From assembly GCF_003201775.1 (NCBI RefSeq), contig NZ_QJJZ01000006.1:62001-126000 (forward strand): a stretch of 64,000 nt of DNA. Reading direction: 5' to 3'. The notes beneath the pieces were generated by a model. That model was not told where the DNA came from. It did no database searches and saw only the letters and a list, made by a program, of their open reading frames with translations. Of this stretch, positions 40,504 through 64,000 are shown one piece after another; the stretch's first letter is position 1; every line of letters begins with the position of its first letter. The stretch comes from Arenibacter sp. ARW7G5Y1 (GTDB taxonomy: Bacteria > Bacteroidota > Bacteroidia > Flavobacteriales > Flavobacteriaceae). A program made the position numbers and the translations under genes.

Positions 40504-40526
40504 AAGTTGTAATGTCTAAATGTTAA
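40504..40526. repeat. Outer arm of degenerate inverted repeat (sufD side)
   Basis: AAATGTTAAACGTTATAAAG (starting about 40518) resembles the minus-strand CAATGTTGAAAGTTTGAAAG at about 40940-40960 in 15 of 20 positions, in inverted orientation. The pair brackets the broken four-helix-bundle gene. Confidence 0.4.
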
Positions 40527-40529
40527 ACG

Positions 40530-40912
40530 TTATAAAGTGCCTTGTCTACTTATCCAATTCTTTATAAATCCACTTAACATTATAGATATGTTTTCAATTT
40601 TTTCCTTTAATAAAATAAACTGCTTCTCCTCCAAATGCCCCAAATCCAATGCTAAATACAACTGTGATCCAACCTCTCCCGCAGAGGCTTTTGAAATGTA
40701 AGAAAGTGGATAAATTCCTTATTCGTATTTCTTTCAAACCCTTCTGCAATATTAGAACTTATTGATACTGAAGCTCTCCTAATCTGTCTCTTTAAATCAA
40801 AATATTTTTCAAATTCACCCTTAATCGTCAAATCATAAATTACCTTGTTGAAATCTATACTCTCTTTCCAAGCATTTATTTCCCCAAACAAATTTATTTT
40901 GGCCATTTCCAA
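40530..40912 (-). pseudogene. Frameshifted four-helix-bundle (23S-IVP) gene
   Basis: The first frame gives INAWKESIDFNKVIYDL and SISSNIAEGFERNTNKEFI, the hallmark of the four-helix-bundle / 23S rRNA intervening-sequence protein family. After ...FLTFQ (near 40690) the match continues in another frame (ASAEVGSQLYLALDLG, then EEKQFILLKEKI) to a stop at 40530. Adding one A in the A-run at 40689-40692 would join the two into about 127 residues. So it is a recent pseudogene or a sequencing error. It sits in the sense direction between sufC and sufD. Its function as an intact family member is unknown. Confidence 0.85.
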
Positions 40913-40971
40913 TCCATAATTAGATTAGAACGCCATTTTGACTTTCAAACTTTCAACATTGAACCTTATAA

Positions 40972-41724
40972 CTATATCACAGTTTCCTGTTTCAACCAGT
41001 CATATCCTTTTTCTTCCAATTCCAAAGCAAGGTCCTTAGTACCGGATTTAACGATCTTTCCGTTGTGCAAAACGTGCACAAAATCAGGGACAATGTATTC
41101 CAACAAACGTTGGTAGTGGGTAATAACTATTACAGCGTTATCCTTACTCTTTAATTTATTTACCCCATTGGCAACAATACGCAGGGCATCGATATCCAAA
41201 CCGGAATCCGTTTCATCCAAAATGGCCAATTTAGGTTCCAACATCGCCATTTGAAAAATCTCGTTACGCTTTTTCTCCCCACCTGAAAAGCCTTCATTAA
41301 GGGAGCGCGACAAAAATTTTCTATCGATCTCCAACAATTCCGATTTCTCACGGATCAATTTCAACATATCCTTGGCAGGCATATCTTCCAAACCTTTTGC
41401 CTTTCTAGACTCATTGATCGCTGTTTTCATGAAGTTGGTAACGGAAACACCTGGAATTTCAACAGGATACTGAAAGGAAAGAAATATTCCCTTATGTGCC
41501 CTATCTTCTGGTGAGGTGTCCTCTAAATTTTCACCTTCCAAAAATACCTCTCCTTTGGTAATTTCAAATTCTTCCTTCCCGGCAATTACGGCAGCCAAGG
41601 TACTTTTCCCAGAACCGTTAGGCCCCATAATAGCATGTACTTCCCCTGCATTTACCGTTAAGTTTATTCCTTTTAGTATCTCCTTATCCTCTACTCTAGC
41701 GTGTAAGTTGTTAATTTTCAGCAT
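40972..41724 (-). CDS. sufC: Fe-S assembly ATPase SufC
   Basis: SufC powers the SufBCD scaffold. The 250-residue ABC-type ATPase has Walker A GPNGSGKST near residue 35, the signature LNEGFSGGEKKRNEI near residue 144, Walker B LAILDETDSGLD and the switch histidine in VIVITHYQRLL. There is no membrane domain, as expected. It lies between sufB (143-base gap) and the inserted four-helix-bundle pseudogene. Confidence 0.97.
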   Translation of the reverse strand: MLKINNLHARVEDKEILKGINLTVNAGEVHAIMGPNGSGKSTLAAVIAGKEEFEITKGEVFLEGENLEDTSPEDRAHKGIFLSFQYPVEIPGVSVTNFMKTAINESRKAKGLEDMPAKDMLKLIREKSELLEIDRKFLSRSLNEGFSGGEKKRNEIFQMAMLEPKLAILDETDSGLDIDALRIVANGVNKLKSKDNAVIVITHYQRLLEYIVPDFVHVLHNGKIVKSGTKDLALELEEKGYDWLKQETVI

Positions 41725-56908: not shown

Positions 56909-58924
56909 ATGTCTGTATTGGATTCTAAAATACCAAAAGGCCCATTAAAGGATAAATGGACTACCTATAAGGATAAAATAAACTTGGTAAATCCTGCCAA
57001 TAAGCGAAACATCGACGTTATTGTTGTTGGTACCGGCCTTGCAGGGGGTTCTGCCGCGGCAACCCTAGCCGAGCTAGGCTATAGGGTTAAGGCGTTCTGC
57101 TATCAAGATTCACCACGTAGAGCGCATTCCATTGCTGCCCAAGGGGGTATAAATGCCGCAAAAAACTATCAAGGGGATGGCGATTCTATCTATCGTTTGT
57201 TTTATGATACAGTAAAGGGAGGGGATTACCGTTCCCGAGAGGCCAACGTGTACCGTTTGGCAGAGGTTTCGGCCAATATAATAGATCAATGTGTGGCACA
57301 GGGTGTCCCTTTTGCAAGGGATTATGGTGGATTATTGGACAACCGTTCTTTTGGTGGAGTATTGGTATCCCGAACGTTTTATGCCAAAGGGCAAACGGGC
57401 CAACAATTATTGTTAGGAGCCTATTCTGCCATGAACCGGCAGATTGCCCGTGGTAAAATTGAAATGTATAACAGGCATGAAATGCTCGATGTTGTAAAGG
57501 TGGATGGCAAAGCACGTGGTATTATTGCCCGTAACTTGGTTACCGGTGAAATAGAACGCCATTCGGCACACGCCGTAGTAATTGCATCGGGGGGTTATGG
57601 CAACGTATACTTCCTTTCTACCAATGCCATGGGGTCCAACGCCACAGCGGCTTGGAAAATACATAAAAAGGGGGCCTTTTTTGCCAACCCATGTTATACC
57701 CAAATTCACCCAACCTGTATCCCTCGGTCCGGAGATTATCAATCCAAATTGACCTTAATGTCCGAGTCATTGCGTAACGATGGCCGTATATGGGTTCCTA
57801 AAAACATGGAAGATGTATTGGCCATTAGGGAAGGAAAATTAAAACCAACCCAATTGAGCGAGGAACAAAGGGACTACTATTTGGAAAGAAGATATCCTGC
57901 TTTTGGAAACTTGGTACCACGTGATGTGGCTTCCAGAGCTGCAAAAGAAAGGTGTGATGCCGGTTACGGCGTTAATGCCACTGGAGAAGCCGTGTATCTG
58001 GATTTTAAATCCGCCATTGAAAGGTATGGCTTGGAACAAGCCAAAATCCATGGTATACAAAATCCAACCAAAGAAAAAATTACAGCACTTGGCGAAGCAG
58101 TAGTGGAGGAGAAATATGGGAACCTGTTTCAGATGTACGAAAAAATCGTAGACGAAAATCCATACAAGACCCCAATGATGATCTATCCCGCAACCCACTA
58201 TACCATGGGGGGTGTTTGGGTAGATTACAATCTAATGACTACCGTAGAAGGCCTTTACTGTATTGGGGAAGCCAATTTTTCAGATCACGGTGCCAACCGT
58301 TTGGGAGCATCTGCCTTAATGCAAGGCTTGGCCGATGGTTATTTTGTGCTCCCGTACACTATAGGGGATTATCTTTCCCATGAAATTAGGACTGGAAAAA
58401 TTCCTACAGATACGCCGGAATTTGATCAAGCCGAAAAGGAAGTAACGGATAGGATCAACTTCTTTGTCAACAACAATGGAACCCATTCAGTTGATTATTT
58501 CCATAAACGCTTGGGCAAAGTTATGTGGGACAAATGTGGTATGTCCCGTAACGCTGAAGGCCTAAAAGAAGCCATGTCAGAAATTAAGGCGATACGTGAA
58601 GAATTTTATAAGGAAGTAAAGGTTCCTGGATCAGCCAATGAAATGAATCCGGAATTGGAGAAAGCAGGACGCGTGGCGGATTTCTTGGAATTGGGCGAAT
58701 TGTTTGCCAAGGATGCCTTAATGCGGGAGGAATCGTGTGGAGGACATTTCCGTGAAGAATCCGTGGAAATTGATGGAGAGCAAAAAGGAGAAGCAAAACG
58801 TAACGATAAAGATTATGCTTTTGTAGCTGCTTGGGAATTCAAAGGAGAACCTTCAGAGGCCGTTTTGCACAAGGAACAATTGGAATTTAAGGATATAGAA
58901 TTAAAACAAAGAAGTTATAAATAG
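56909..58924 (+). CDS. sdhA: Succinate dehydrogenase flavoprotein subunit
   Basis: SdhA holds the covalent FAD and oxidises succinate to fumarate. The 671-residue protein has the FAD fold [20 protein letters not shown] near residue 33, the flavin-histidine block [18 protein letters not shown] near residue 70, [12 protein letters not shown] and [12 protein letters not shown], and [17 protein letters not shown]. Length fits the longer Bacteroidota form. Its TAG stop directly touches the inverted repeat of the inserted four-helix-bundle element. Confidence 0.96.
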
Positions 58925-58945
58925 GCAAAAGACAATAGGCATTAG
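58925..58945. repeat. Left terminal inverted repeat of the inserted element
   Basis: The 21-base arm running GCAAAAGACAATAGG...CATTAG matches the reverse complement of 59334-59354 in 19 of 21 positions. It begins right after the sdhA stop codon. Confidence 0.75.
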
Positions 58946-58970
58946 CCAAAAATAAATGGAGGTTGCCCAT

Positions 58971-59333
58971 ATGAATGAAGTAAGAACGTATAAAGACTTG
59001 CTGATCTGGCAAAAAGGAATAGATATCGTTAAGGAAATTTATTTATTATGCCAATAAATCCCAAATGACGAGTTATTCGGTTTACAAAGTCAAATTAAAC
59101 GTTCCTCTATATCAATACCTTCAAATATTGCCGAAGGATGGGGTCGGAATTACACTGAGAATTATATTCAATTCTTAAAAATTTCAAGAGGATCTTTATT
59201 CGAATTGGAAACCCAATTAATAATTGCTAAAGAATTAAACTTTATTTCAACCGATAGTTATAATAGAATACAAGTTTTAATAACCGAAGAAAGTAAAATG
59301 TTAAACGCCTTCATTAAATCGATAGACAAGTAA
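58971..59333 (+). pseudogene. Four-helix-bundle (23S-IVP) gene with in-frame stop
   Basis: Reading from the ATG at 58971, codon 29 (59055-59057) is TAA; the frame then runs on intact to TAA at 59331-59333, 121 codons in all. The protein reads YKDLLIWQKGIDIVKEIYLL, stop, then SQIKRSSISIPSNIAEGWGR and YIQFLKISRGSLFELETQL, the signature of the four-helix-bundle / 23S-IVP family. One base change at the stop (for example from AAA) would restore it. It lies in sense orientation between sdhA and sdhB, and its stop codon abuts the right inverted repeat. Confidence 0.9.
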
Positions 59334-59354
59334 CTAATGCCTATTGGCTTTTGG
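59334..59354. repeat. Right terminal inverted repeat of the inserted element
   Basis: This 21-base arm is the inverted copy of 58925-58945 with two mismatches. It follows the stop codon of the four-helix-bundle pseudogene at once and ends 16 bases before sdhB. Confidence 0.75.
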
Positions 59355-59370
59355 CTAATAAACTATAAGA

Positions 59371-60117
59371 ATGAATCTTACATTAAAAATTTGGAGACAG
59401 AAAGGACCACAGGACAAAGGTAAAATGGTCGAATATAAGGTGACCGAGATTTCAGAACATATGTCATTCCTTGAGATGATGGATGTTTTGAACGAACAGC
59501 TCACCAACAAAGGCGAAGAACCTGTTGCTTTTGACCATGACTGTCGCGAAGGTATTTGCGGTATGTGCTCCATGTACATCAACGGGGAAGCCCATGGTCC
59601 GGATAGAGGGGTTACTACCTGCCAATTACATATGCGAATGTTCAAGGATGGCGACACCATTACTATTGAGCCGTTTAGGGCAAAAGCCTTTCCGGTAATC
59701 AAGGATTTGGTGGTAGACCGTAGTTCCTTTGATCGGATTCAACAGGCCGGTGGTTTTATTTCCGTCAACACCTCTGGAAATACCCAGGATGCCAATGCCA
59801 TTCCAATTGATAAGCACGCAGCGGATACGGCCATGGATGCCGCTACCTGTATTGGTTGTGGCGCCTGTGTAGCAAGTTGTAAAAATTCCTCGGCCATGTT
59901 GTTTGTTGGGGCAAAGGTATCCCAATATGCCCTACTCCCACAAGGACGTATTGAAGCTACGGACCGAGTGAAGAATATGGTCGCGCAAATGGATTTGGAA
60001 GGATTTGGAAACTGTACCAATACAGGGGCTTGTGAAGTAGAATGTCCTAAAGGAATATCCTTGGAAAACATTGCCCGTATGAACAGGGAGTTCTTTGCCG
60101 CAAGCATAAAAGGATAG
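59371..60117 (+). CDS. sdhB: Succinate dehydrogenase iron-sulfur subunit
   Basis: SdhB passes electrons from FAD to quinone through three clusters. The 248-residue protein has the 2Fe-2S cysteines in [16 protein letters not shown] and VTTCQLHM, and the ferredoxin-like part with [15 protein letters not shown] and [15 protein letters not shown] for the 4Fe-4S and 3Fe-4S clusters. All cluster cysteines are present. It is 446 bases from sdhA because of the inserted element, so its expression must cross that insert. Confidence 0.96.
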
Positions 60118-60219: not shown

Positions 60220-60693
60220 ATGCCAAAAAAATATAAGGAAGAAAGGATAATCGTTCCGCGTTTTAATGAGGAGTCCGGTTTTTATACCACCCCTGAGCGT
60301 TCTAAGATCATGGGAAAAATTAGAGGTAAAAACACCATTCCCGAACTCAAATTTAGAAAAGCCCTATGGGCGGCAGGATATAGATATAGGGTAGATTACA
60401 AGAAATTGATTGGCAAACCGGACATTGTCCTAAATAAATATAAAACCGCCATCTTCATTGATGGCGAATATTGGCACGGGTATAATTGGGAGGAGCGGAA
60501 ACAAAGGATTAAAACAAACAAAGAGTTCTGGATTCCAAAAATTGAACGCAATATTCAACGCGATAGGGAAGTAAACCAAGAATTACAACAAATGGGCTAT
60601 ACCGTATTCCGTTTTTGGGAACGGGAGATTAAGAAAGAATTGGATCTATGTCTAAATCAGGTAATTCAACATTTACAATCACAGCAAAACTAA
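60220..60693 (+). CDS. Vsr-like mismatch endonuclease (orphan)
   Basis: The 157-residue protein matches the very-short-patch repair nuclease family: MGKIRGKNTIPELKFRKALW near residue 30, the catalytic Asp in KLIGKPDIVLNKYK near residue 69, and FIDGEYWHGYN and FWIPKIERNIQRDREVNQEL later. Vsr nicks T:G mismatches made by deamination of methylcytosine. Where classical members have CFWHGHDC-like zinc-site residues, this one has EYWHGYNWEE, lacking the cysteines. No cytosine methyltransferase is adjacent, so it is an orphan. TATCTTTA at 60209-60216 is a likely -7 box. Confidence 0.85.
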   Translation: MPKKYKEERIIVPRFNEESGFYTTPERSKIMGKIRGKNTIPELKFRKALWAAGYRYRVDYKKLIGKPDIVLNKYKTAIFIDGEYWHGYNWEERKQRIKTNKEFWIPKIERNIQRDREVNQELQQMGYTVFRFWEREIKKELDLCLNQVIQHLQSQQN

Positions 60694-63735: not shown

Positions 63736-63999
63736 CTATCTTGAATTCCTCTTACTTGTACTTATTATTTTATACAAAATTAACCCCAACTCGTCAATAC
63801 TATTTTTTAAATCGATATCAAAAGGATATGAATTAGACCGTTCGCATAAAACAAGCCAATATTTGGCTTCCTCCAGCTCCTTGACAGCAATTTTCATTTT
63901 ATGTATAAAGTCGGCTCTACTTTCAGCGTTTTGTGCTTCATGAATATTAGCACCAATGCTAGTACCTGCCTTTAATAACTGTGTTGCAATGACGTACTT
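63736..63999 (-). CDS. Four-helix-bundle (23S-IVP) protein, partial
   Basis: The 3' 87 codons of a gene run off the right edge. The translation has LLKAGTSIGANIHEAQNAES and FIHKMKIAVKELEEAKYWL, the conserved helices of the four-helix-bundle / 23S-IVP family, and ends in TAG at 63736. The visible frame has no stop or shift, in contrast to the two broken copies at suf and sdh. It is in sense orientation upstream of scoB. Confidence 0.85.
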   Translation of the reverse strand, partial: KYVIATQLLKAGTSIGANIHEAQNAESRADFIHKMKIAVKELEEAKYWLVLCERSNSYPFDIDLKNSIDELGLILYKIISTSKRNSR

Positions 64000-64000
64000 T

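Follow-up and report, generated by a model that had tools for sequence, protein, structure and literature searches.

A broken intervening-sequence protein gene between sdhA and sdhB of Arenibacter is one of a family bounded by mirrored heptad arms

In the 64,000-nucleotide stretch of Arenibacter sp. ARW7G5Y1 analysed here (contig NZ_QJJZ01000006.1; hereafter the window), the genes that we take to be sdhA and sdhB are separated by a broken gene for a 23S rRNA intervening-sequence protein (IVP; PF05635), lying between two mirror-image arrays of seven-nucleotide units. An original prediction, made from the letters of the window, had seen a small mobile unit with 21-bp ends. The segment is a broken member of a family of IVP elements with mirrored heptad arms and no transposon with 21-bp ends, and the find is larger than that prediction supposed. 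Our preferred, still tentative reading is that it may represent a widespread group of operon-borne intervening elements acting at the RNA level, siblings of the rRNA intervening sequences (IVS), in which a ring of IVP would read the heptad arms.

Results

The original prediction of a four-helix-bundle gene with a premature TAA at codon 29 between sdhA and sdhB is borne out, the gene being a PF05635 member of 120 codons (Table 1). A search of positions 58800-59500 found one pair of inverted repeats, somewhat longer than the 21 bases (19/21 matched) first reported: the arms are 24 nt long, 92% complementary (22/24) and 388 nt apart. They abut stop codons as had been described, the left arm overlapping the TAG of sdhA and the right arm starting directly after the IVP stop. 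Read by eye, AG recurs in the left arm at 58923, 58930, 58937 and 58944, and CT in the right arm at 59334, 59341, 59348 and 59355, both in exact 7-nt register. Joined by a short linker, the two arms give a predicted stem of -27.9 kcal/mol, and the minimum-energy fold of the 440-nt element is closed by the same arms. The arm score of this copy is 19.0, which is reached by 1 of its 83 mismatched left/right pairs from the genus (mean 7.3, p 0.024), a null that includes orthologues with a similar right arm.

Table 1. Features in the window (positions numbered from its first nucleotide; the names sdhA and sdhB are presumed)
Feature	Position	Strand	Remarks
sdhA, upstream host gene	56909-58924	+	671 aa; TAG stop (58922-58924) holds the first AG of the left array
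Left arm, four AG-heptads	58922-58950	+	inverted-repeat part 58922-58945
IVP gene (PF05635)	58971-59333	+	TAA codon 29 at 59055-59057; stop at 59331-59333
Right arm, four CT-heptads	59334-59357	+	reverse complement of left arm, 22/24
sdhB, downstream host gene	59371-60117	+	248 aa
Second IVP element	40505-40973	-	frame broken in two pieces (40697-40879, 40569-40700); arms 40941-40973 (5' in sense) and 40505-40538, GTTCAA type
Third IVP element	63775-64000	-	runs past the window end

Against a Pfam cut-off of 33.8 bits, the part of the gene after the premature stop scores 104.6 bits for PF05635, the frame read through the stop 130 and an intact orthologue 132.8. The AlphaFold model of an orthologue (pLDDT 90.8) has four helices and in Foldseek matches 2gsc, an entry of five chains, with a TM score of 0.83-0.89; it also matches 2rld and the DGR Avd protein in reverse transcriptase (RT) ribonucleoprotein entries. 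The copy in the window has lost its protein and is probably decaying. Downstream of sdhB lies a small ORF (60220-60693, + strand), the product of which we take to resemble a very-short-patch repair (Vsr-type) endonuclease.

The genome carries six IVP genes, three of which are within the window; it has eight profile matches because two of the copies are split and each contributes a further piece. The second window element is presumably flanked by suf-type genes and the third presumably lies between two CoA transferase subunit genes; the lineage of the third has units of 8 nt (TCAATGTG) rather than 7, as do the copies at the site we call scoAB. Long perfect arrays occur in some copies. At a site that we take to be ruvC-hemW, an intact IVP gene of the same genome adjoins eleven consecutive CAGTGGT-type units (L368, 16973-17050), likely a fast-changing repeat locus.

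IVP profile matches were obtained in all 18 Arenibacter genomes searched, yielding 85 distinct copies, 67 intact and 18 not. Among the 84 copies with both neighbours in the locus, 83 are co-directional with both; these 84 fall at 14 sites, with 74 of them at six. On the best tree of the 66 intact genus copies, at least two changes of site label occur at five of the six main sites, and one at scoAB. Well-supported branches alone force two label changes at three sites, presumably ruvC-hemW, ffh-folD and sufCD (the name scoAB is likewise our assumption).

Relatives lacking the insert, to which the original prediction had looked for comparison, are found within the genus. Across the 18 Arenibacter genomes, the sdhA-sdhB gap contains an orthologue of the window gene in six (five intact: G004, G005, G006, G012 and G015), another IVP lineage in three and no gene in eight, with G013 unassigned. 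The eight gene-less gaps are 65-79 nt long, and seven that were folded gave shuffle z values of -1.5 to -6.8 (four at -2.2 or lower, three at -1.5 to -1.8); the clearest reads AGTATTG AGATATT AGAAGTG ... CTCATTA CTCAATA CTT. At 13 loci of other genera the gap is gene-less and 5-48 nt long in ten, forms a 72-nt hairpin (z -3.8) in one and is occupied by other IVP genes in two (L065, L066), so the junction seems to take insertions repeatedly. Array length at sdhA-sdhB also shifts by 7 nt between sister species. Among 73 distinct named relatives, a biased sample of those nearest to the window lineage, 65 adjoin sdhA and/or sdhB across several Bacteroidota families, suggesting that the lineage is loyal to its site.

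Surveys returned IVP genes in 113 of 149 Flavobacteriaceae, 116 of 148 Bacteroidota and 45 of 121 Chloroflexota genomes. These surveys are non-random, made up of the top-scoring loci from each search and of lower rows chosen by hand, and the search for named relatives used the best 80 of 218 hits. We pooled 301 distinct IVP genes from six sets (genus, Flavobacteriaceae, named relatives, Bacteroidota, non-Bacteroidota and Chloroflexota), the non-Bacteroidota set comprising six genomes of named records; 16 repeated ORFs were excluded and 1 of 318 loci had no profile match. Arm tests omit elements with flanks under 15-18 nt.

Strand polarity was counted over 101 protein clusters with less than 60% identity between them, 69 from Bacteroidota and 32 from elsewhere. 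In the 5' flanks AG at 7-nt spacing (AG/7) was counted 239 times and CT/7 27 times, and in the 3' flanks CT/7 195 times and AG/7 23 times, whereas 173 co-directional gaps of the same loci, with more than three times the sequence, gave 90 vs 92. Counting a maximum of three per flank preserved the bias (160 vs 26 on the 5' side, 143 vs 23 on the 3' side), and so did scoring each element once (64 vs 4, with 33 tied, on the 5' side; 60 vs 6, with 35 tied, on the 3' side). The left-flank polarity was 143 vs 17 in the Bacteroidota clusters and 96 vs 10 in the others. Runs of at least three units flank the gene on both sides in 35 of the 101 clusters, the mirror order being seen in 1 of 101; at least one side carries such a run in 54 (9 in the mirror control), and by the strict count neither side does in 47. 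Self-identity of the flanks peaks at lag 7 (0.35-0.51 in the six sets) and at lag 14, compared with 0.28-0.31 after shuffling and 0.32 in control gaps. We also considered a heptad of four conserved and three variable bases and rejected it, since the rotated profile was the same as the profile of permuted phases; the AG/CT polarity alone stands. Run lengths spread over 3-6, and are at most a hint of five units for five subunits.

DGR Avd loci served as a further control (16 of 30 loci used, 3 of them without an ORF). Their flanks did not show the polarity, with AG/7 2 and CT/7 10 on the left and CT/7 2 and AG/7 7 on the right at the 13 usable loci, and none of 12 inverted-repeat scores reached 12.

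The arrays lie close to the neighbouring cistrons. Among elements with a run of three, 25 of 36 have an array beginning -2 to 7 nt from the stop codon of the gene before it, and 16 of 29 have one finishing no more than 8 nt from the start codon that follows. The upstream stop is TAG in 26 of 62 elements vs 78 of 334 controls, an excess explained by the stop often being drawn into the array. Flavobacteriaceae copies are placed in sense between co-directional genes in 68 of 70 cases, and more weakly elsewhere (22/26, 11/14 and 18/23); the sole baseline is a 400-kb part of the same genome as the window, where the figure is 53% of genes.

The left and right arms of the same element score at least 12 in 29/80, 32/60, 40/69, 15/28, 5/12 and 18/27 cases in six sets, vs 3.7, 5.3, 17.6, 2.0, 4.5 and 3.4% of mismatched pairs in the same order, the high third value reflecting a set that is nearly one lineage. 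For an element's own arms in direct orientation the figure is 5-25%. When two elements were compared, own arm pairs came to win over crossed pairs with growing divergence, from 10 vs 12 above 90% identity through 64 vs 38 and 208 vs 106 to 524 vs 187 at 60-70%, in element pairs that are non-independent; the two arms thus co-evolve. At unrelated sites similar arms are seen in 5% of pairs whose proteins are less than 45% identical, in 36% of those at 60-70% and in 2 of 3 pairs above this; the rise with protein identity suggests that the arms track the gene more closely than the site. Same-site pairs below 40% protein identity have similar arms in 9-22% of cases.

In ten genus lineages, two of which are represented by one pair each, median dN/dS is 0.05-0.10, which indicates strong purifying selection on the IVP protein. 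Its mean net charge is about +2, modest for a nucleic-acid binder.

The view of the segment as a small mobile unit stands in one respect: gene and arms behave as a discrete unit, patchy at the junction and with a tree in conflict with that of its neighbours. The other part, in which all copies would share the same inverted repeats and be moved by a transposase in trans, fell away because the arm letters are specific to the copy or lineage, and the six copies of this genome have none in common. Accordingly, a classical transposon with common ends was rejected, and shared terminal inverted repeats of the IS/MITE kind are not seen among these six copies. Near-identical copies at unrelated sites are likewise not seen: among 244 elements, protein identity stays below 80% in every pair that has no neighbour gene in common, and three pairs at 82-83% vanish once pairs with a common neighbour are excluded. 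This sample thus offers neither an end common to the copies on which one transposase could act nor any indication of recent scatter.

The IVP data reject the sdhA/B tree, and the sdhA/B data the IVP tree, over 60 loci (AU test, 5000 replicates; log-likelihood differences 927 and 2187). A repeat with 58 loci and 10000 replicates, dropping L201 and L209 for doubtful or partial upstream genes, had the same outcome (differences 792 and 2213; p-AU 2e-5 and 7e-61). The identities of IVP and SdhB are weakly linked (Spearman 0.27). Over 1770 pairs of sdhA-IVP-sdhB loci, IVP in general does not exceed its flanks in similarity at third positions (median difference 0.002). Two pairs are the extremes of these 1770: in L236/L239 the IVP DNA is 90% alike, with flanks at 74 and 78% and the left arm at 56%, and in L199/L201 IVP is 98% alike and identity declines over some hundred bases on each side, resembling co-conversion. 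The comparisons would fit exchange that now and then takes place at one and the same junction, whether through homing or through plain recombination.

An array scan over 400 kb of the genome, a region that contains every one of the six copies, recovered three of them, one twice. By count it was unspecific (AG..CT 7, CT..AG 5, CA..TG 15, TG..CA 13), and three extra AG..CT candidates outside IVP loci in this 400 kb were judged by eye to be chance rather than solo hairpins.

Discussion

The reading that we tentatively prefer gives the element the plan stop codon - (AGNNNNN)n - IVP gene - (NNNNNCT)n - start codon. Lying in the sense of the host operon, it would be transcribed with it, and the complementary arrays could pair in the transcript as a stem whose loop carries the IVP gene. 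An IVP ring, which in the solved relative is a pentamer (a ring of five in the available passages of PMC4990558), may then recognise its own AG-heptads, perhaps with one subunit per heptad. The stem would be cut by RNase III or another nuclease acting on double-stranded RNA, by analogy with the Coxiella rRNA insert, which according to the same passages RNase III cuts at the first repeat (PMC4990558). Such a cut would make the insert tolerable between cistrons, and its frequent closeness to the stop and start codons would be a further reason for this tolerance. Selection on the protein would maintain the unit, and exchange between species would take place mainly at the same operon junction, new junctions being rare.

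Several observations count against this proposal. By the strict count, 47 of the 101 clusters are without a run, the scoAB units are of 8 nt, and sense placement is weaker beyond the Flavobacteriaceae. The protein of the Coxiella rRNA insert is described as probably not expressed in the portion of the source available (PMC4990558), which speaks against a need for the protein in excision. The modest net charge of the protein, and the finding that IVP is in general not more similar between loci than its flanks are, also weigh against the proposal. The low dN/dS would be expected equally of a resident gene and of an element.

Such a resident gene is the most serious alternative, although we consider it unlikely: IVP would be an ordinary member of its operon, and by binding its own heptad arms in the mRNA its ring would adjust the proportion of one flanking cistron to the other. 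TRAP, which binds spaced NAG repeats, offers a comparison. The strong purifying selection in ten lineages would be expected of such a regulator, as would the several sites between subunit pairs (sdhA/B and, by presumed names, sufC/D, scoA/B and fadB/A) and the retention of one site by one lineage over several families, seen in 65 of 73 relatives in a biased sample of the nearest named ones. It is harder to reconcile with the patchy presence at sdhA-sdhB, with more than one lineage at five of the six main sites on the best tree, with 18 of the 85 genus copies not being intact, and with the conflict between the IVP and sdhA/B gene trees.

It is less probable still that IVP genes are REPtron-like DNA elements, in which the arms would be single-stranded DNA hairpins bound by IVP, a host nuclease or recombinase would do the chemistry, and gene-less hairpins would be non-autonomous forms. 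Such elements would produce the AG/CT hairpins seen in relatives where the sdhA-sdhB gap lacks a gene, and the heptad arrays that occur elsewhere with no IVP gene close by. However, the protein has no known catalytic domain (Pfam returned IVP and a sub-threshold bAvd match only), 400 kb of the genome held no solo hairpin that we judged clear, and insertions are few in the divergent and convergent gaps that a DNA element should tolerate.

Passive origin of the arms is very unlikely. Tandem-repeat slippage with strand switching in weakly constrained operon gaps could have built mirror arrays, and both the 7-nt changes in unit number between sister species at sdhA-sdhB and the long perfect arrays of some copies have that character; yet ordinary gaps and Avd flanks show no such arrays, and a single AG/CT polarity inside and outside Bacteroidota is unexpected from slippage. 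The classical insertion element of the original prediction, with terminal inverted repeats of 21-24 bp and a transposase in trans, would account for a gene bounded by inverted repeats and for presence and absence at one site, but it is less likely still, given that arm letters differ among the copies of one genome, leaving no common end for one enzyme, and that no pair among the 244 elements reaches 80% identity without a shared neighbour gene.

Returning to RNA-read elements, a broader claim can be formulated that we regard as possible and on balance doubtful. IVP genes might constitute a previously unrecognised, cross-phylum class of mobile intervening elements, in which the ring would read a heptad code of AG and bases typical of the lineage, each unit perhaps taken by one subunit. 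Arms and protein would co-evolve, homing-like exchange would keep the elements at fixed junctions, and the rRNA IVS would be no more than a branch settled in ribosomal RNA. The strand-polar heptads tied to IVP inside and outside Bacteroidota offer a testable ligand for PF05635, a family that is common in Bacteroidota (116/148 genomes) and whose function is called unknown in those parts of the literature examined. The question joins rRNA inserts, Avd-fold rings and heptamer arms, and has a bearing on the tolerance of operons for inserts between their cistrons.

Comparison with known systems

In REPtron and REP-BIME systems, a RAYT transposase gene lies between inverted palindromic repeats, and gene-less hairpins also exist. 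The IVP unit resembles them in having a gene between inverted repeats and in the gene-less hairpins. It differs in that the gene between the arms is IVP rather than RAYT, with no Y1/HUH transposase found in the unit, and in its 7-nt arrays and the lack of visible recent scatter.

TAACTGA heptamer repeats occupy intergenic gaps in Beggiatoaceae, Cyanobacteria and Bacteroidetes, and their mechanism of spread is given as not known in the available part of the report (PMC4679880). Like the IVP arms, they are 7-nt direct repeats of the CT/7 type, and in the passages available they often stand just before start codons (PMC4679880). A triple repeat is present in 12 of 296 Bacteroidota genomes. As candidates for IVP arms these repeats found no support, an IVP gene being present in the 3-kb locus at 1 of 15 distinct places (further places in G171 and G309 are outside this count). 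The Bacteroidota loci L375, L380 and L382 carry IVP-less AG/CT heptad arrays with TAACTGA units, some of them hairpin-like.

DGR Avd proteins (bAvd, PF22296) share the IVP fold and are present in RT ribonucleoprotein structures; an IVP-Avd likeness has been noted (PMC10053308, in the part available). Unlike IVP genes, DGR Avd genes are without heptad arms. The reverse transcriptase that marks a DGR was not found near the window element: PF00078 matches in this genome are on contigs C2, C3 and C15, with none on the window's contig C6. A reverse transcriptase required in trans was also discarded, as 8 of the 18 genus genomes have no PF00078 match and all 18 carry IVP, which argues against a need for it in upkeep and not against an old origin by retrotransposition.

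The titles, abstract openings and passages of the open-licence literature covered contained no description of heptad arms around IVP genes that lie in protein operons. The accessible parts of other reports place IVP genes in cas loci (PMC3936711) and in rRNA inserts of CPR bacteria (PMC11270868). An Rfam scan of seven loci, chosen for missing or odd neighbours to see whether such copies lie in rRNA, gave no match.

The closest known system is the rRNA IVS. As far as the available passages go, the 23S rRNA IVS of Coxiella is 428 nt long; its inverted repeats form a stem, and GACAGAT heptamers stand in tandem ahead of its S23p gene (PMC4990558). The operon elements share with rRNA IVS such as those of Coxiella and Leptospira, as described in the parts of the sources available, the protein family, the tandem heptamers and the stem-forming terminal inverted repeats, which in the window copy are the 22/24 arms on which the fold closes. 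Unlike the IVS, they lie between protein genes, sdhA and sdhB in the window copy, rather than within an rRNA gene, their arms are specific to the lineage, and their protein is mostly intact and under selection.
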